Below the pieces are notes generated by a model. The model was not told where the DNA came from. It saw nothing but the letters and a program-made list of their open reading frames with translations, and ran no database searches. Both the position numbers and the translations under genes were made by a program. 35,499 nt of DNA from Paracoccaceae bacterium (lineage in GTDB: Bacteria; Pseudomonadota; Alphaproteobacteria; Rhodobacterales; Rhodobacteraceae): assembly GCA_003550665.1 (NCBI GenBank), contig PUKW01000036.1, positions 1 to 35,499 on the forward strand. The letters run 5' to 3'. Positions 7,036 to 14,112 of this stretch are shown piece after piece (positions within the stretch are counted from its first letter, which is position 1; every line of letters begins with the position of its first letter).

Positions 7036-7926
7036 TCAGAGCCACTGCATGAGGATCTGCCAGGAGACCACCGCCACGAGCGCCCCTGCAACGAGTTCGA
7101 GCGCGGGAATCACCGCCCGGGCGCGCGCGATCGGCCCACTCCAGACCAGCGCCCCGTCGCGCGCGGAGACCGCGAGCAAAGCCACCGCGACGGTCACGCT
7201 CGCCGTGCCGAGCCCCATCGCATAGGCCCCCGCGATCCCCGCCGCCTCGATCCCCATGCGCCATGTCAGGATCAGCAGGAACAGCGCCCCGGTGCAGGGG
7301 CGAATCGCGATGCTGCCGATCAGCAGCGCCGAGTCGCGCCAGCCGCGCAGCTTCGACACCTGCTCCGCACTCGGGCCGTGACTGTGCCCCTTGCAGCCGC
7401 ACCCCGCGCCATGCGGCTGCGCGGCCGGGCGCCATTGCCGCAGCACGTTTCGAAGCCCGCGCAGCGCAAGGTAGACGCCCACGAGCCCGATCGCCGCATA
7501 GCTCACCGGGGTCAGGATCTCGTCTCCCGCCCCCACGAGCTGCTCGCGGCTCCAGCCGAGCACGAGCACCCCGGCATAGACCAGCACGACGGCCGTCGTC
7601 GCCTGGGCAAGGCTCGCGGCGAGCGCGATCCCGGCGAGCCGCCCGGCGCGCACGCCGCTGCCCGCACCGTAACCGCCGATCAGGATCTTGCCATGGCCCG
7701 GACCGACCGCATGGAAGAACCCGTAGGCAAAGGTGATCCCCATCAGCGTGGCAAGCGCGCCCGGTTCGCCCGCGCGCAGGCTGCGCAACGCACCCGCCAT
7801 CGCGTTCTGGAAGTCGCGCTGGCCCTCGATTGCCCAGCGCGCGATCCCGTCGAGCCCGCCCTGCAACCACATCACCGCGAGCGCGAGTGCAGCGGCGAGC
7901 GCGGCGGTCAGGATGACCCGTTGCAT
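7036..7926 (-). CDS. NicO/RcnA-family nickel/cobalt transporter
   Basis: Hydrophobic, HAVGPGHGKILIGGY signature, His/Cys-rich loop HGAGCGCKGHSHG; adjacent DUF1007 gene. Confidence 0.88.
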   Translation of the reverse strand: MQRVILTAALAAALALAVMWLQGGLDGIARWAIEGQRDFQNAMAGALRSLRAGEPGALATLMGITFAYGFFHAVGPGHGKILIGGYGAGSGVRAGRLAGIALAASLAQATTAVVLVYAGVLVLGWSREQLVGAGDEILTPVSYAAIGLVGVYLALRGLRNVLRQWRPAAQPHGAGCGCKGHSHGPSAEQVSKLRGWRDSALLIGSIAIRPCTGALFLLILTWRMGIEAAGIAGAYAMGLGTASVTVAVALLAVSARDGALVWSGPIARARAVIPALELVAGALVAVVSWQILMQWL

Positions 7927-8576
7927 GCGATACGCACCTCTTCGGCAAAGGCGTCGCCGACCTCCGGAAACTCGGCCTCGATGTCGGCCATGTCCGCGCC
8001 GTCGGCGATCATTTCGTCGAGCTTGTCCTGCAGCATCGCTTCGGCAGCGTCCCGGTCGGGCACGTCGATCCGCGCGGTGCAGTCGTCGCGCCCGGCGATC
8101 TCCGGATCGAACGCGACCCTGTATTCGGTGTAGTAGGTCGGGTCATACACCTCGAAGACGATCTCGCCGATGTCGGGATCGACGCCGTTTTCGATCTCGC
8201 GGCGATGCGTGGTGGTGATGCGCCCGTCGGTAAAGTCCGCGGTCCAGTCCTGCGGCCCGCTCAATTCCAGCGGCGTCCCGTCCGCGAAGCCGAAGAGATC
8301 TCCCTCATAGCCGTCAACCCAGTTCATGTCGAAGCCGGAAAGCTCCTCGCGCTCGCTGTCGTCGATTTCACCCGTATAGTCCTGATCGAGCCCGAGATCG
8401 TCGATCACCAGCATCGAGTAGAAATCATCATAGACCCAGGTCACCTTCACCTGCGCGAGCTGTCCGTCGTCATCGAAGTGCAGCTCGAGCCCGGCATCGA
8501 TGAAGATGTGCGGATGCGCCTGCGCCGCCGTCGCACCCAGACAGGGCAGCGTCGCCACCAGTATTACACGCAGCAT
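7908..8576 (-). CDS. DUF1007 family periplasmic protein
   Basis: Signal peptide then AHPHIFIDAGLELHFDDDGQLAQVKVTWVYDDFYSML, the DUF1007 signature; overlaps the NicO gene by 19 bp. Confidence 0.9.
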   Translation of the reverse strand: MLRVILVATLPCLGATAAQAHPHIFIDAGLELHFDDDGQLAQVKVTWVYDDFYSMLVIDDLGLDQDYTGEIDDSEREELSGFDMNWVDGYEGDLFGFADGTPLELSGPQDWTADFTDGRITTTHRREIENGVDPDIGEIVFEVYDPTYYTEYRVAFDPEIAGRDDCTARIDVPDRDAAEAMLQDKLDEMIADGADMADIEAEFPEVGDAFAEEVRIACNGSS

Positions 8577-8628: not shown

Positions 8629-9225
8629 CTAGCCCGGTCGTCGCGCGACGTAGTCGATCAGCGCCGATCTGCCGGAATGGCCGCTGCCCTCATGGATCTC
8701 GGCGTCGTAGTCGGATGCGACCAGCTCCTCGAAACCGGCAAAGGCCCGGCGCAGCAGATCGAGCGTATACATGTTCTCCCGCGCCGGGGGACCACCAGTG
8801 CCATACTCGACCTGACGGGGCGCGTAGCCCTGCACGAGGAGGAGCCCGCCGGGGCGCAGCGTCGTCGCCATGCCCGCGAATATGCGATCGCGCAGCGCGG
8901 GCGGGGCGAACTGAATGAAAATCGCCGCGACGGCGTCGTAGCGCGCGCGCTCCCAGGGCCAGTCGGCGATGTCGGCCTCGTGAAAATCCACGCTCACCCC
9001 GCGCCGCCGCGCGAGCGCGCGGGCCTTGTCGAGCCCGACGCGCGAGCTGTCCATCGCCGTGACCCGATGCCCGCGCCCGGCCAGAAAGACCGAGTTGCGC
9101 CCCTCGCCGTCAGCGACGGCGAGCACCGACGCGCCCGGCGCGATCCGATGCGCTTCGCGATCGAGAAAGGCATTCGGCGCCTCCCCGAAGAGATACGACG
9201 CTCCGGCGTAACGGTCGTCCCACAT
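8629..9225 (-). CDS. Class I SAM-dependent methyltransferase (TehB-like)
   Basis: VLAVADGEGRNSVFLAGRGHRVTAMDSS (motif I), LRPGGLLLVQGYAP. Start ATG 9225 or GTG 9231. Confidence 0.9.
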   Translation of the reverse strand: MWDDRYAGASYLFGEAPNAFLDREAHRIAPGASVLAVADGEGRNSVFLAGRGHRVTAMDSSRVGLDKARALARRRGVSVDFHEADIADWPWERARYDAVAAIFIQFAPPALRDRIFAGMATTLRPGGLLLVQGYAPRQVEYGTGGPPARENMYTLDLLRRAFAGFEELVASDYDAEIHEGSGHSGRSALIDYVARRPG

Positions 9226-9271
9226 CCACACCCCTCCGTTTGCGGCGAGCTATGGCCGTGGCGCCGCGAGT

Positions 9272-10273
9272 TCAACCCGCGGCGCGCTGGCGCGACAGGT
9301 CCAGCGTCATGATCCGTGCGCGACCGGCATGCTTGGCCTCGTAGAGCAGCATGTCGGCATCGCGCAGCATCCGGTCGGGTTCGGGCGTGTCGTACTGGGT
9401 CGACAGGATCGCCCCGATGCTGGCGGTCACGCGACAGGGCACGTCGCGATACCAGATCGGTGCGTCGAGCCGCTCGATCAGCCGCTCGGCGATCCGCCGC
9501 AGCGGCTGGCATTCGCCGATCCCGGGCATGATGACCACGAATTCATCGCCGCCGACGCGCGCGACCATGTCGCCCTGGCGCGTCTCCTCGATCAGGATCC
9601 GCCCCACGGCCTCGAGAACGGCGTCGCCGGCGGCATGGCCATGACTGTCGTTGACCTGCTTGAAGTGATCGAGGTCGATCTGCATCAGCGCGAAACGTGG
9701 CCCCCCGCGACACAGGTGCTCGAGCGCGCTGTCCATCGCGCGACGATTGCGCAGCCCGGTGAGCGTGTCCGTGAGCGCCTGCTCCTCGGCGGCGAGCCGC
9801 GCGCCCTGCAAGCGGCGGTTCAGGCTGCGCAGCTCGTCCTGCACGGCCGTCTTGGCTTCGGTGAGGTAGAGCATCTCGATGGCGAGATCGGTCGGCGCGA
9901 AGTCGCGATCGGTGAGGCCATGGCGCTGGACGGCCTCCGCCACGCTGATGCCGAAGGACAGGTTGACCAGCGCGCCCCGCCCCCCATCGAGCGGCACGGC
10001 GAGGCCCTTGAAGCCGGTGCCCGGCGGGCTGCGCAGGCTCAACCGCAGGCGCGGCACCGGCGCCTCGGCGAGCGCATGCGCCGCGCGCAGCCCGCGGGGT
10101 CGCTGCACCGCGAAGATATCGAAGAGCGGCTCGCCGACCAGCGCCCGATCACCAGAGATCTTCGCGATCGTGCTGCCGGCCGAGGCGATGCGCCCGGTAC
10201 CGTCGAGCTGCAGGTGCATCGGCATGAGCGCATCCAGCGCCGCCGGGTCGAGCCGCAGGCCGGCCATCGTCAC
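9272..10273 (-). CDS. Diguanylate cyclase with N-terminal H-NOX-associated (HNOBA-like) sensor region
   Basis: C-terminal GGDEF domain with VGGDEF active site and RQGD I-site 5 residues upstream; GTG start at 10273 overlaps the H-NOX stop (GTGA), alternative ATG at 10267. Confidence 0.9.
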   Translation of the reverse strand: MTMAGLRLDPAALDALMPMHLQLDGTGRIASAGSTIAKISGDRALVGEPLFDIFAVQRPRGLRAAHALAEAPVPRLRLSLRSPPGTGFKGLAVPLDGGRGALVNLSFGISVAEAVQRHGLTDRDFAPTDLAIEMLYLTEAKTAVQDELRSLNRRLQGARLAAEEQALTDTLTGLRNRRAMDSALEHLCRGGPRFALMQIDLDHFKQVNDSHGHAAGDAVLEAVGRILIEETRQGDMVARVGGDEFVVIMPGIGECQPLRRIAERLIERLDAPIWYRDVPCRVTASIGAILSTQYDTPEPDRMLRDADMLLYEAKHAGRARIMTLDLSRQRAAG

Positions 10274-10878
10274 GGGGCGTCCTGCCGAACGGGCGCGCCG
10301 ACGCCGGCGAGTTCGAAGCGCCGTCCGGCGGCATGGGCGCGGTCGAGCAGCCGGATCTCGATACGCTCGACACCGTCGGACTGCGCAACGCGCTCGAGCG
10401 TGATGAGCGCGCCGTAATCATCGGCCATCGCCTGCAGCAGGCCCGTCACGACAGGCGCAAAACCCGGATGCCGGGCGCGGCAGGTCACGCTGAACCGGCC
10501 CCCGCCCTCGTCGCGAAGCTCGAGATCCGGCAGGTCCAGATCCGGCACGGCGAGGCGCCCGCGCTCGCGCAGATCGTCGAGCGAATGAAGGAAGTCCTCG
10601 AAACTGACGCCACCGAATCGCAAGAGCCGGCGCAGGCGTTCGCGATCCGGATGCGACACGAGATAGATCCCGAGATCTTCGAGCAGGTCATCCACCGGCT
10701 TGTCGAGCGACGCCGCCGCCGCGTCGAGCACCGCGTCGGTCACCGCATCGCCGTATTCCAGCATCGTTTCGAATTCCCCGGCATCGACACCGCCCGCGCA
10801 GGCGATGGATGCCCAGCGGGCGTCGCCATAGGTGTCGCGCAGAAAGCACTCGATCGCCCGATTCACCAATCCATGCAT
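10270..10878 (-). CDS. H-NOX (heme-NO/O2-binding) domain protein lacking canonical heme-ligand residues
   Basis: MHGLVNRAIECFLRDTYGDARW N-terminus and FEDFLHSLDDL...GFAPVVTGLLQAMADDYG match the H-NOX fold family; coupled to the GGDEF gene. Confidence 0.87.
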   Translation of the reverse strand: MHGLVNRAIECFLRDTYGDARWASIACAGGVDAGEFETMLEYGDAVTDAVLDAAAASLDKPVDDLLEDLGIYLVSHPDRERLRRLLRFGGVSFEDFLHSLDDLRERGRLAVPDLDLPDLELRDEGGGRFSVTCRARHPGFAPVVTGLLQAMADDYGALITLERVAQSDGVERIEIRLLDRAHAAGRRFELAGVGAPVRQDAP

Positions 10879-11111: not shown

Positions 11112-11819
11112 CTAGCCCGGACCCGACGCCCACCACCCCAGCAGCCCGGGCAACTCGCCGATATCCGCAAGCACCGCATCCGCCAGCGGCGCGAGGTCAT
11201 CGCGCGCGGCCGGGCCGGTGAGCACACCTGCGGTGCGCATCCCCGCCGCGCGCCCCGCGCGCAGATCGTACAGGCTGTCGCCCACCATCAGTACCGATTG
11301 CGGGTCGAGCCGGCAGGCGCGGGCAAAGGCCGTCAGCATGCCGGGCTCCGGCTTGGGCCCGTAGCCGCTGTCATGGCCCGCGATGAAGTCGAATCGCCCG
11401 GCGAGGTCGCCCAGATGCGCGCGCGCCGGGGCCTCGGCGTCATTGGTGGCAACGCCGAGGCGCACGCCGTCCGCGCGCAGCCGGTCCAGAAGCGGCGCGA
11501 GCGGCACCGCGGGGACCATCGCGACCGCCGCCGCACTGGCATTGATGTGCGCGCGCAGCGCGGGGGATGTCATTCCCGGCAGGTGCTCGACCAGCAGTGC
11601 CACGACCTCGTCGGGGCTTCCGGCGATGGCTGGGCTGTCGGGCGCGAAGCGCCGCCGCTGCAGATCGTAGCGCAACGCACCGGCGAGCCGCGCCATCCGC
11701 CCCGCATCGCCGGAGGCGAGCTCCTCGATGAGCCCGCCGGCCCAGGCGCCCCAGCTCGCGTGAAAATCGAACAGCGTGCCATCCTTGTCGAAGATCACGC
11801 CGCGGATCGTCGTCGTCAT
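11112..11819 (-). CDS. HAD-family hydrolase (phosphoglycolate phosphatase-like)
   Basis: GVIFDKDGTLFDFHASW (DxDGT), KPEPGMLTAFARACRLDPQSVLMVGDSLYDLRAGRAAGM. Confidence 0.9.
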   Translation of the reverse strand: MTTTIRGVIFDKDGTLFDFHASWGAWAGGLIEELASGDAGRMARLAGALRYDLQRRRFAPDSPAIAGSPDEVVALLVEHLPGMTSPALRAHINASAAAVAMVPAVPLAPLLDRLRADGVRLGVATNDAEAPARAHLGDLAGRFDFIAGHDSGYGPKPEPGMLTAFARACRLDPQSVLMVGDSLYDLRAGRAAGMRTAGVLTGPAARDDLAPLADAVLADIGELPGLLGWWASGPG

Positions 11820-12355: not shown

Positions 12356-12640
12356 TCAGGTCCAGTTGATCGGTGCGCCCCCCGGAAGACCCTGCCGCGC
12401 CGCCGCGAGGGTCTCGTATGCGAACCCGCATGCGTCGCAGCACGCCACCACCCAGTCATCATCCATCAGCACGAAGTCCATGACGGCGGCCAGAAATTCC
12501 GGATCACCCGTGCCGTCACGCAGATCCTCGAGCGCGGCGCCCGAAGCGCCGAGAAACACCGGCAGGAGGTCCTCGTTGCCCGCCAGCCAGCTCAACACCT
12601 GCAATGCGACCGTCTCGGCCCGTTCCCGCGTCATCGCCAT
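12356..12640 (-). CDS. DUF3572 domain protein
   Basis: 94 aa, ETVALQVLSWLAGNEDLLPVFLGASG...DPEFLAAVMDFVLMDDDWVVACCDACGF; divergent from pleD, a common alphaproteobacterial arrangement. Confidence 0.8.
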   Translation of the reverse strand: MAMTRERAETVALQVLSWLAGNEDLLPVFLGASGAALEDLRDGTGDPEFLAAVMDFVLMDDDWVVACCDACGFAYETLAAARQGLPGGAPINWT

Positions 12641-12723
12641 GATTGACCCCGCGAAAGAAAATCTTAACCATTTCTGCCAAAGTTGAGGAACGCACTGCGC
12701 GCACCTCGGGAGACGGAGTCACA

Positions 12724-14112
12724 ATGGCCGGCAAGGTCCTCATCGTCGATGATGTTTCAACGAACCGACTGGTCCTCAAGGCCAAGCTGTCGCGCAGCTG
12801 TTACGAGACGCTTCAGGCCGGCGACGGGACGACGGCGCTCGCACTGGCGCGCGCGGAGCAGCCGGGTCTGATCCTGCTCGACATGATGCTGCCGGATCTC
12901 GACGGGGTCGCGGTGTGCCGGCGGCTGCGCGCCGATCCGGCAACCCGCGACATCCCCGTGATCGTCGTGACGGCCCTCGACGACGCCGAGAGCCGGCGCC
13001 GCGCGCTGCGCGCCGGGGCGGATGACTTCCTCACCAAGCCGGTGGATGAGCTGATGCTGCTCGCGCGGATGCGCAATCTCCTGCGCGCCCGGCAGACCGA
13101 AAGCGAGCTCGGCCAGCGCATCCCGGCCGACACCGCGGGCGGCTTTGCCGAGCCCGAAGCGGCCTTCGAGGGCGCCGGGCCGCGCGGCCGGATCGCGCTC
13201 GTGGCGCGCGACCGGGCGGCGGGGGTCGCCTGGCGGGCCGCACTCGCGCGGCACCTGCAGCATGATTTCGAGATCTGCAGCCCCTCGGAAGCACTGAACG
13301 CGCGCGACGGCGCCGACGCGCCGCAGCTTTTCGTCATCGACGCCGATATCGACCGGCCCGGCGGCGGGCTGCAGCTCATGTCCGAACTTCGCGCCCGGGC
13401 GGGCACGCGCCACGCCGCGCTGTGCATCGTGCTCGACCCGGGCGCACGCGACACCGGGATCACCGCGCTCGATCAGGGGGCGAGCGAGCTTTTGCCGCGC
13501 GACTTCGAACCCCGCGAGGCGGCGCTGCGCATTGCCACGCAGCTGCGCCGCAAGCTGCGCGCCGACCGGCTGCGCGAGGCGCTGCGCGACGAGCTGCGTT
13601 TCGCCGTGACCGATCCGCTCACCGGGCTGCACAATCGCCGCCACGCGATTCCGCAACTCGCGCGCATCGCCCAGCAGGCGCGCCGCACCGGGCAGCGCTA
13701 CGCGATCATGCTTCTCGATCTCGACCGCTTCAAGGAGGTCAATGATCGCTGGGGGCACGGTGCGGGCGATGCCGTGCTGATGGAGGTCGCCGCGCGTCTG
13801 CGCGACGCGATGCGTCCCAGCGACATGCTCGCGCGGATCGGCGGCGAGGAATTCCTCGTCGCGATGCCGGGGGTCGATCTGGGCGCCGCCCGGCTCGCCG
13901 CGGAGCGTCTGCGTCAGGTCGTCGAGGCGCGGCCCTTCGCGCTCCCCGCCGACGCGGGCAGCGTCTGCGTGACCCTTTCGGTGGGGCTCGTGGTCGAGGA
14001 TGGCTCGGACGCGCAGGACGGCATCGGCGGTATCGACCGTGCCGACCGCGCGCTTCGCGCCGCCAAATCGGAGGGGCGCAATCAGGTCACTGTGGGCCTG
14101 TGCGCGGCCTGA
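12724..14112 (+). CDS. pleD: PleD-like response regulator diguanylate cyclase (REC-REC'-GGDEF)
   Basis: MAGKVLIVDDVSTNRLVLKAKL...LILLDMMLPDLDG...FLTKPVDELML, degenerate second REC, then GGEEF with RPSD I-site. Confidence 0.93.
   Translation: MAGKVLIVDDVSTNRLVLKAKLSRSCYETLQAGDGTTALALARAEQPGLILLDMMLPDLDGVAVCRRLRADPATRDIPVIVVTALDDAESRRRALRAGADDFLTKPVDELMLLARMRNLLRARQTESELGQRIPADTAGGFAEPEAAFEGAGPRGRIALVARDRAAGVAWRAALARHLQHDFEICSPSEALNARDGADAPQLFVIDADIDRPGGGLQLMSELRARAGTRHAALCIVLDPGARDTGITALDQGASELLPRDFEPREAALRIATQLRRKLRADRLREALRDELRFAVTDPLTGLHNRRHAIPQLARIAQQARRTGQRYAIMLLDLDRFKEVNDRWGHGAGDAVLMEVAARLRDAMRPSDMLARIGGEEFLVAMPGVDLGAARLAAERLRQVVEARPFALPADAGSVCVTLSVGLVVEDGSDAQDGIGGIDRADRALRAAKSEGRNQVTVGLCAA

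Follow-up and report, generated by a model that had tools for sequence, protein, structure and literature searches.

An H-NOX-type fold need not carry heme: in sGC, the H-NOX domain of the alpha subunit has none. S. oneidensis H-NOX without its His (H103G, structure 2kil) mimics the inhibitory state. In canonical H-NOX proteins, NO severs the Fe-His bond, and helix alphaF and the subdomains move; heme-free H-NOX of V. cholerae senses redox via a zinc-Cys site (PMC7108781). A class of H-NOX proteins lacking the proximal His was described in 2022 by Lee-Lopez and Yukl as 'Group 5', a very large cluster in which fewer than 10% of members have the His, most have Pro, and no Cys is conserved; their review raises the question of how such proteins sense any signal (PMC8738867). 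The absence of the axial His had been noted earlier for P. denitrificans and R. sphaeroides by Kumar and Spiro, citing Iyer 2003 and Plate & Marletta 2013 (PMC5588039). In P. denitrificans, biofilm formation is deficient in an hnoX mutant and excessive in a dgcAB mutant, which the authors read as NO-dependent inhibition of DgcA by H-NOX (PMC5588039); direct measurement of c-di-GMP failed in this organism (PMC12582929). A review and a later paper describe the H-NOX of D. shibae as reported to use heme to sense NO and as an inhibitor of Dgc1 (PMC8846402, PMC7232146). No measurement of heme in a His-less member turned up in a literature search.

The H-NOX gene and its heme-site residues

The gene examined here lies within a 35,499-nucleotide stretch of Rhodobacteraceae DNA, referred to as the window. 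The gene and its two heme-site features are:

10270..10878, minus strand: H-NOX (HNOB) protein, 202 aa (ORF translation, Pfam match, Nostoc alignment, tree)
10567..10569, minus strand: codon CGC, encoding Arg104, in the place of the His that is the proximal heme ligand (the plus strand reads gcg)
10468..10482, minus strand: C133-R-A-R-H137, replacing the YxSxR heme-propionate motif (alignment)

Pfam HNOB (PF07700) matches residues 2-161 of the protein with an E-value of 2.7e-22 (79.9 bits, against a cut-off of 25.5). In a phmmer alignment with Nostoc Alr2278 H-NOX, both heme sites fall within gap-free stretches, where R104 is paired with the ligand H105, and C133, A135 and H137 with Y134, S136 and R138, respectively. 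The protein is therefore an H-NOX, as the first-pass annotation of the bare sequence had it, and it lacks both canonical heme-binding features, the proximal His and YxSxR; alignment and codon agree on Arg at the ligand position, with no His aligning there, and all three of Y, S and R are replaced. Misalignment at the ligand position was considered and rejected, given the absence of any gap relative to the Nostoc protein. HNOB was found once in a search of the window's genome, which revealed no second, canonical H-NOX. The only Cys residues of the protein are 11, 27 and 133, and its sequence contains no three-Cys zinc motif near the hinge.

The H-NOX fold is confidently predicted. An AlphaFold model without heme has a mean pLDDT of 91.9, and its best solved matches are Nostoc H-NOX (Foldseek E-value 1.3e-14, rmsd 2.3-2.4) and sGC beta1 (rmsd 2.2 to the NO-activated state of the human protein), with alpha chains scoring far worse than beta1. 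In the model of a Pro-type congener (pLDDT 92.4), the helix at 93-110 is unbroken. Such models do not reveal the state of the pocket, which could be vacant, occupied or ready for heme. The fold, Pro117 and the hinge glycines are shared with canonical H-NOX proteins (Nostoc Alr2278, sGC beta1 and S. oneidensis), but the window protein differs from these in having neither His ligand nor YxSxR, and in possessing a GRxFxL C-terminal extension and an RRLLRFGG segment.

The gene is under purifying selection, with a dN/dS of 0.26 between the window and its nearest relative (L032), values of 0.10-0.22 for other close pairs, and 0.42 against the more distant L059. Since this is a real, selectively maintained H-NOX with neither proximal ligand nor propionate clamp, canonical His-ligated heme binding is, judged from the sequence, unlikely.

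Distribution and history of the ligand position in Rhodobacteraceae

Of 298 genomes from the family to which the window belongs, 224 contain an HNOB match. Loci were gathered from the family and from named genomes, and ten more were added from a class-wide search, in which few relatives were found outside Rhodobacteraceae. When the ligand and YxSxR columns are left out of the H-NOX tree, 105 Rhodobacteraceae sequences, including the window protein, form one clade (SH-aLRT 99), and its nearest sister, L002, has both the His and an intact YxSxR. Of the clade members, 77 have Pro at position 104, 10 have His, 5 have Arg and 4 have Ala, with the full range of residues comprising P, H, R, A, Q, S, K, E, G, T and N, and the complete YxSxR is kept by none of the 105. 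Canonical paralogues in the same family (L004-L028 and others) retain YxSxR, and all but one retain the His. The loss is thus not private to a single genome but is clade-wide; nor are the losses of ligand and clamp, which the first-pass annotation took together, tied to each other, because YxSxR has gone from clade members that keep the His as well. With the His mostly replaced by Pro, G70 and G146 kept, and Cys unconserved, the clade matches Group 5, and the window protein is a further member of that published class, not a new kind of protein. It shares these traits and an associated GGDEF gene with the P. denitrificans Pden_3719 type, but its ligand position holds Arg rather than Pro. Two Paracoccus species other than P. 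denitrificans (L056 and L057) sit in the clade.

The genome G035 is that of D. shibae (100% match, at the same coordinates, to plasmid pDSHI01). Its H-NOX (Dshi_2815, locus L060) belongs to the same clade, shares 47% identity with the window protein and is followed by the same type of cyclase. The Y and S of YxSxR are lost there too (the sequence is C-I-W-H-R), but in contrast to the window protein it keeps the proximal His and the Arg at the third YxSxR position, and has been reported to sense NO and inhibit Dgc1. D. shibae, the sole member found with a reported NO response, is a His exception, and its response is therefore not transferable to the window protein or to the His-less majority. 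The literature search found no statement that NO-responsive D. shibae is such an exception.

Several positions are near-invariant and specific to the clade: H2, W22, E37, E67-D68, R106, D153-D154-Y155-G156 and R83-R84-L85-L86-R87-F88-x-G90. The C-terminal G185-R186-x-F188-x-L190 is also near-invariant in the clade and is absent from canonical proteins. Pro117 on the proximal side is retained, and so are the hinge glycines G70 and G146; F70, found in 35 of 35 comparison sequences, is mostly L, I, V or M in the clade. His2 is present in 98 of the 105 members and is not conserved in canonical proteins; a role for it as substitute ligand is unsupported, the His-bearing D. shibae H-NOX having His2 as well. 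Among the three Cys positions of the window protein, C11 is Cys in 32 of 105 members, position 27 is not a Cys position (the top residues are R, E, A and D), and C133 is Cys in 61 of 105, with V, L or I in most others.

In a concatenated H-NOX and cyclase tree, the window and L032, both with Arg at position 104, are sisters (support 100), their next outgroup is the Pro-bearing L059 of the same genus (support 87), and the three are nested in a wider Pro group (support 96). This indicates that the Arg of the window most simply arose from Pro, not His. The first-pass observation that the codon is one transition from CAC (His) holds for the codons, but with L059 as outgroup it does not describe the likely history. 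Parsimony requires nine changes between His and not-His on the concatenated tree, and there is modest evidence (p-AU 0.035) against a tree uniting all His-bearing clade members with the outgroup. His was thus probably lost several times or regained; the deep branches of the tree are poorly supported.

Three further observations concern these residues and genes. Trp occupies the former Ser position of YxSxR in 14 clade members (L029, L031, L037, L046, L048, L055, L060, L071, L093, L108, L113, L125, L130 and L131), and position 104 is not Pro in 13 of these, compared to 15 of the other 91; there are just two independent pairs on supported branches, so the link may reflect shared ancestry. The clade member L067 (genome G274) has an internal TAA and comes as two ORF pieces, probably a broken gene or an assembly error, and it was excluded from the combined tree. 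A canonical-type H-NOX with intact YxSxR, L030 (genome G087), carries Gln at the proximal position and lies outside the Group 5 clade; it represents a separate ligand loss.

The partner cyclase and the surrounding locus

The genes flanking the H-NOX gene, and the catalytic domain of its partner, are:

7036-8576, minus strand: DUF1007 protein overlapping a NicO-type metal transporter, after the cyclase
8629-9231, minus strand: TehB-like methyltransferase, after the cyclase
9272..10273, minus strand: partner diguanylate cyclase, HNOBA-like N-terminus and GGDEF domain, downstream of H-NOX (ORF and Pfam)
9317..9778, minus strand: catalytic GGDEF domain within this cyclase (residues 166-319); its sequence contains the GGDEF motif and an RxxD inhibitory site
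11112..11819, minus strand: HAD-type hydrolase, conserved neighbor 5' of the H-NOX gene
12356..12640, minus strand: DUF3572 protein, conserved neighbor
12643..14112, plus strand: PleD-like response regulator (REC-GGDEF), the second diguanylate cyclase of the locus

The cyclase gene overlaps the H-NOX gene by 4 bases (10270-10273), and by Pfam its HNOBA match is weak and its GGDEF domain full. A nearly full-length homologue of this cyclase is found directly downstream of H-NOX in all 109 of the 109 clade loci, whatever the residue at position 104, and a pattern search detected both GGDEF and the RxxD inhibitory site in 108 of the 110 cyclases examined. L002, the closest relative with His and YxSxR, is also followed by the same type of cyclase, so the partnership is probably older than the loss. 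The PleD-like cyclase, DUF3572 protein and HAD hydrolase occur near the H-NOX/cyclase pair in 18 of 27 related loci, and this linkage identifies the region as a conserved c-di-GMP locus of the family. Among the same 27 loci, the arrangement of DUF1007/NicO and TehB-like genes recurs only in L032, the nearest.

Neither nirS nor nirK was detected by profile search in the window's genome (96.7% complete). One or other gene is carried by 71 of about 216 genomes with a clade H-NOX (a count based on match scores, with eight canonical-only genomes removed) versus 11 of 74 genomes without an HNOB match (Fisher p 0.003, kinship ignored). Respiratory NO production and carriage of the clade H-NOX are thus somewhat associated, although two thirds of carriers have neither gene. 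Denitrification was found in 4 of 8 His104 carriers and 22 of 69 others, numbers too small to establish a link. A search for NnrS gave no match in the window's genome, and none in the control genomes either.

Possible roles of the H-NOX subunit

The best explanation, held with modest confidence, is that the protein is a heme-independent regulatory partner of the adjacent cyclase, most likely an inhibitor. The gene pair would form a two-part c-di-GMP module, consisting of an H-NOX-fold regulatory subunit and an HNOBA-GGDEF diguanylate cyclase. The H-NOX subunit would no longer use His-ligated heme, would probably be heme-free in vivo, and would bind the cyclase and regulate it, most likely by inhibition. 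Because NO acts on canonical proteins by breaking the Fe-His bond, and the H103G protein mimics the inhibitory state, His-less proteins may well rest in that state: with no Fe-His bond, their resting conformation would resemble the NO-activated one (Fe-His broken) and inhibition would be the default. Its activity might then depend on expression or on the partner; alternatively, a non-heme ligand or a protein signal might control it, acting on the conserved, clade-specific surfaces RRLLRFGG (83-90), LED (66-68), DDYG (153-156) and the C-terminal GRxFxL. The missing ligand and YxSxR, the confidently predicted fold without heme, the low dN/dS, the constant pairing with a cyclase whose motifs are intact, and the same pairing in L002 all speak for this reading. 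The free exchange of residues at position 104, while many surrounding residues are near-invariant, is consistent with such a role, as are, by analogy, the hnoX and dgcAB phenotypes of P. denitrificans, whose H-NOX is reported to be His-less and to inhibit DgcA (PMC5588039). Counting against it, those phenotypes were read as NO-dependent by their authors, and about 10% of the clade has His, regain of which would point to an occasional continued use of heme.

The main rival, unlikely but deserving serious attention, is that the protein still binds heme, perhaps only weakly or for short periods, either by means of a different residue or without any axial ligand from the protein, and senses NO or heme availability. 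The D. shibae H-NOX is listed as a heme-based NO sensor despite lacking Y and S, so the full YxSxR is not essential, and the retention of Pro117 and of the hinge glycines G70 and G146, the clade-restricted conservation of His2 (98 of 105) and the richer complement of nitrite reductase genes among carriers (71/216 versus 11/74, p 0.003, kinship ignored) are all in keeping with residual heme. However, position 104 spans at least eleven residues, the F70 of all 35 comparison sequences has mostly given way to L, I, V or M, His2 also occurs in His104 members such as D. shibae and so is no special replacement ligand, and two thirds of carriers, including the window's genome, have neither nirS nor nirK. 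Constant pairing and conserved surfaces would also suit a purely structural subunit that is needed just to fold or hold the cyclase and senses nothing itself. A precedent is the H-NOX domain of sGC alpha, likewise free of heme, although that domain is fused to its own cyclase and has a beta subunit with heme as its partner. A separate, conserved fold of 200 residues with hinge glycines would be a costly scaffold, and the opposite phenotypes of hnoX and dgcAB mutants in P. denitrificans suit an inhibitor better (PMC5588039), making a structural role distinctly improbable.

Redox sensing via Cys11, Cys27 and Cys133, as suggested in the first-pass annotation, or via a zinc-Cys site as in V. cholerae, is very improbable. 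The V. cholerae protein does show that an H-NOX fold can regulate without heme (PMC7108781), but it keeps its His and uses a Cys-zinc site that the window protein lacks, there being no three-Cys motif near the hinge; Cys11, Cys27 and Cys133 all lack conservation across the clade, in line with the published description of the group (PMC8738867). Loss of hallmark residues could also signify a decaying pseudogene or a sequencing error, yet the ORF is intact, dN/dS is 0.26, the nearest relative L032 carries the same Arg, and about 95 further clade orthologues are also without His, so that this is the least credible reading of all.

Heme-independent regulation of the cyclase may extend beyond the window: it is nearly as likely as not that, in the whole family, a former NO sensor has become a regulator of diguanylate cyclase that works without heme, is on by default, responds to a new signal and has been retained throughout, with scattered lineages holding His. 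Papers on P. denitrificans continue to speak of NO-bound H-NOX, but with the NO-responsive D. shibae being a His exception, the case for NO sensing by the His-less majority is one of analogy, and the interest that remains is in which signal these proteins answer. The clade provides a natural series of His, Pro and Arg orthologues that share one type of cyclase partner, and so supplies ready test pairs. If heme-independent regulation is true of the family, the scattered His lineages would offer possibly heme-competent proteins for comparison with heme-less orthologues that have the same partner, and this bears on how c-di-GMP is controlled in a bacterial family that is common in the sea.
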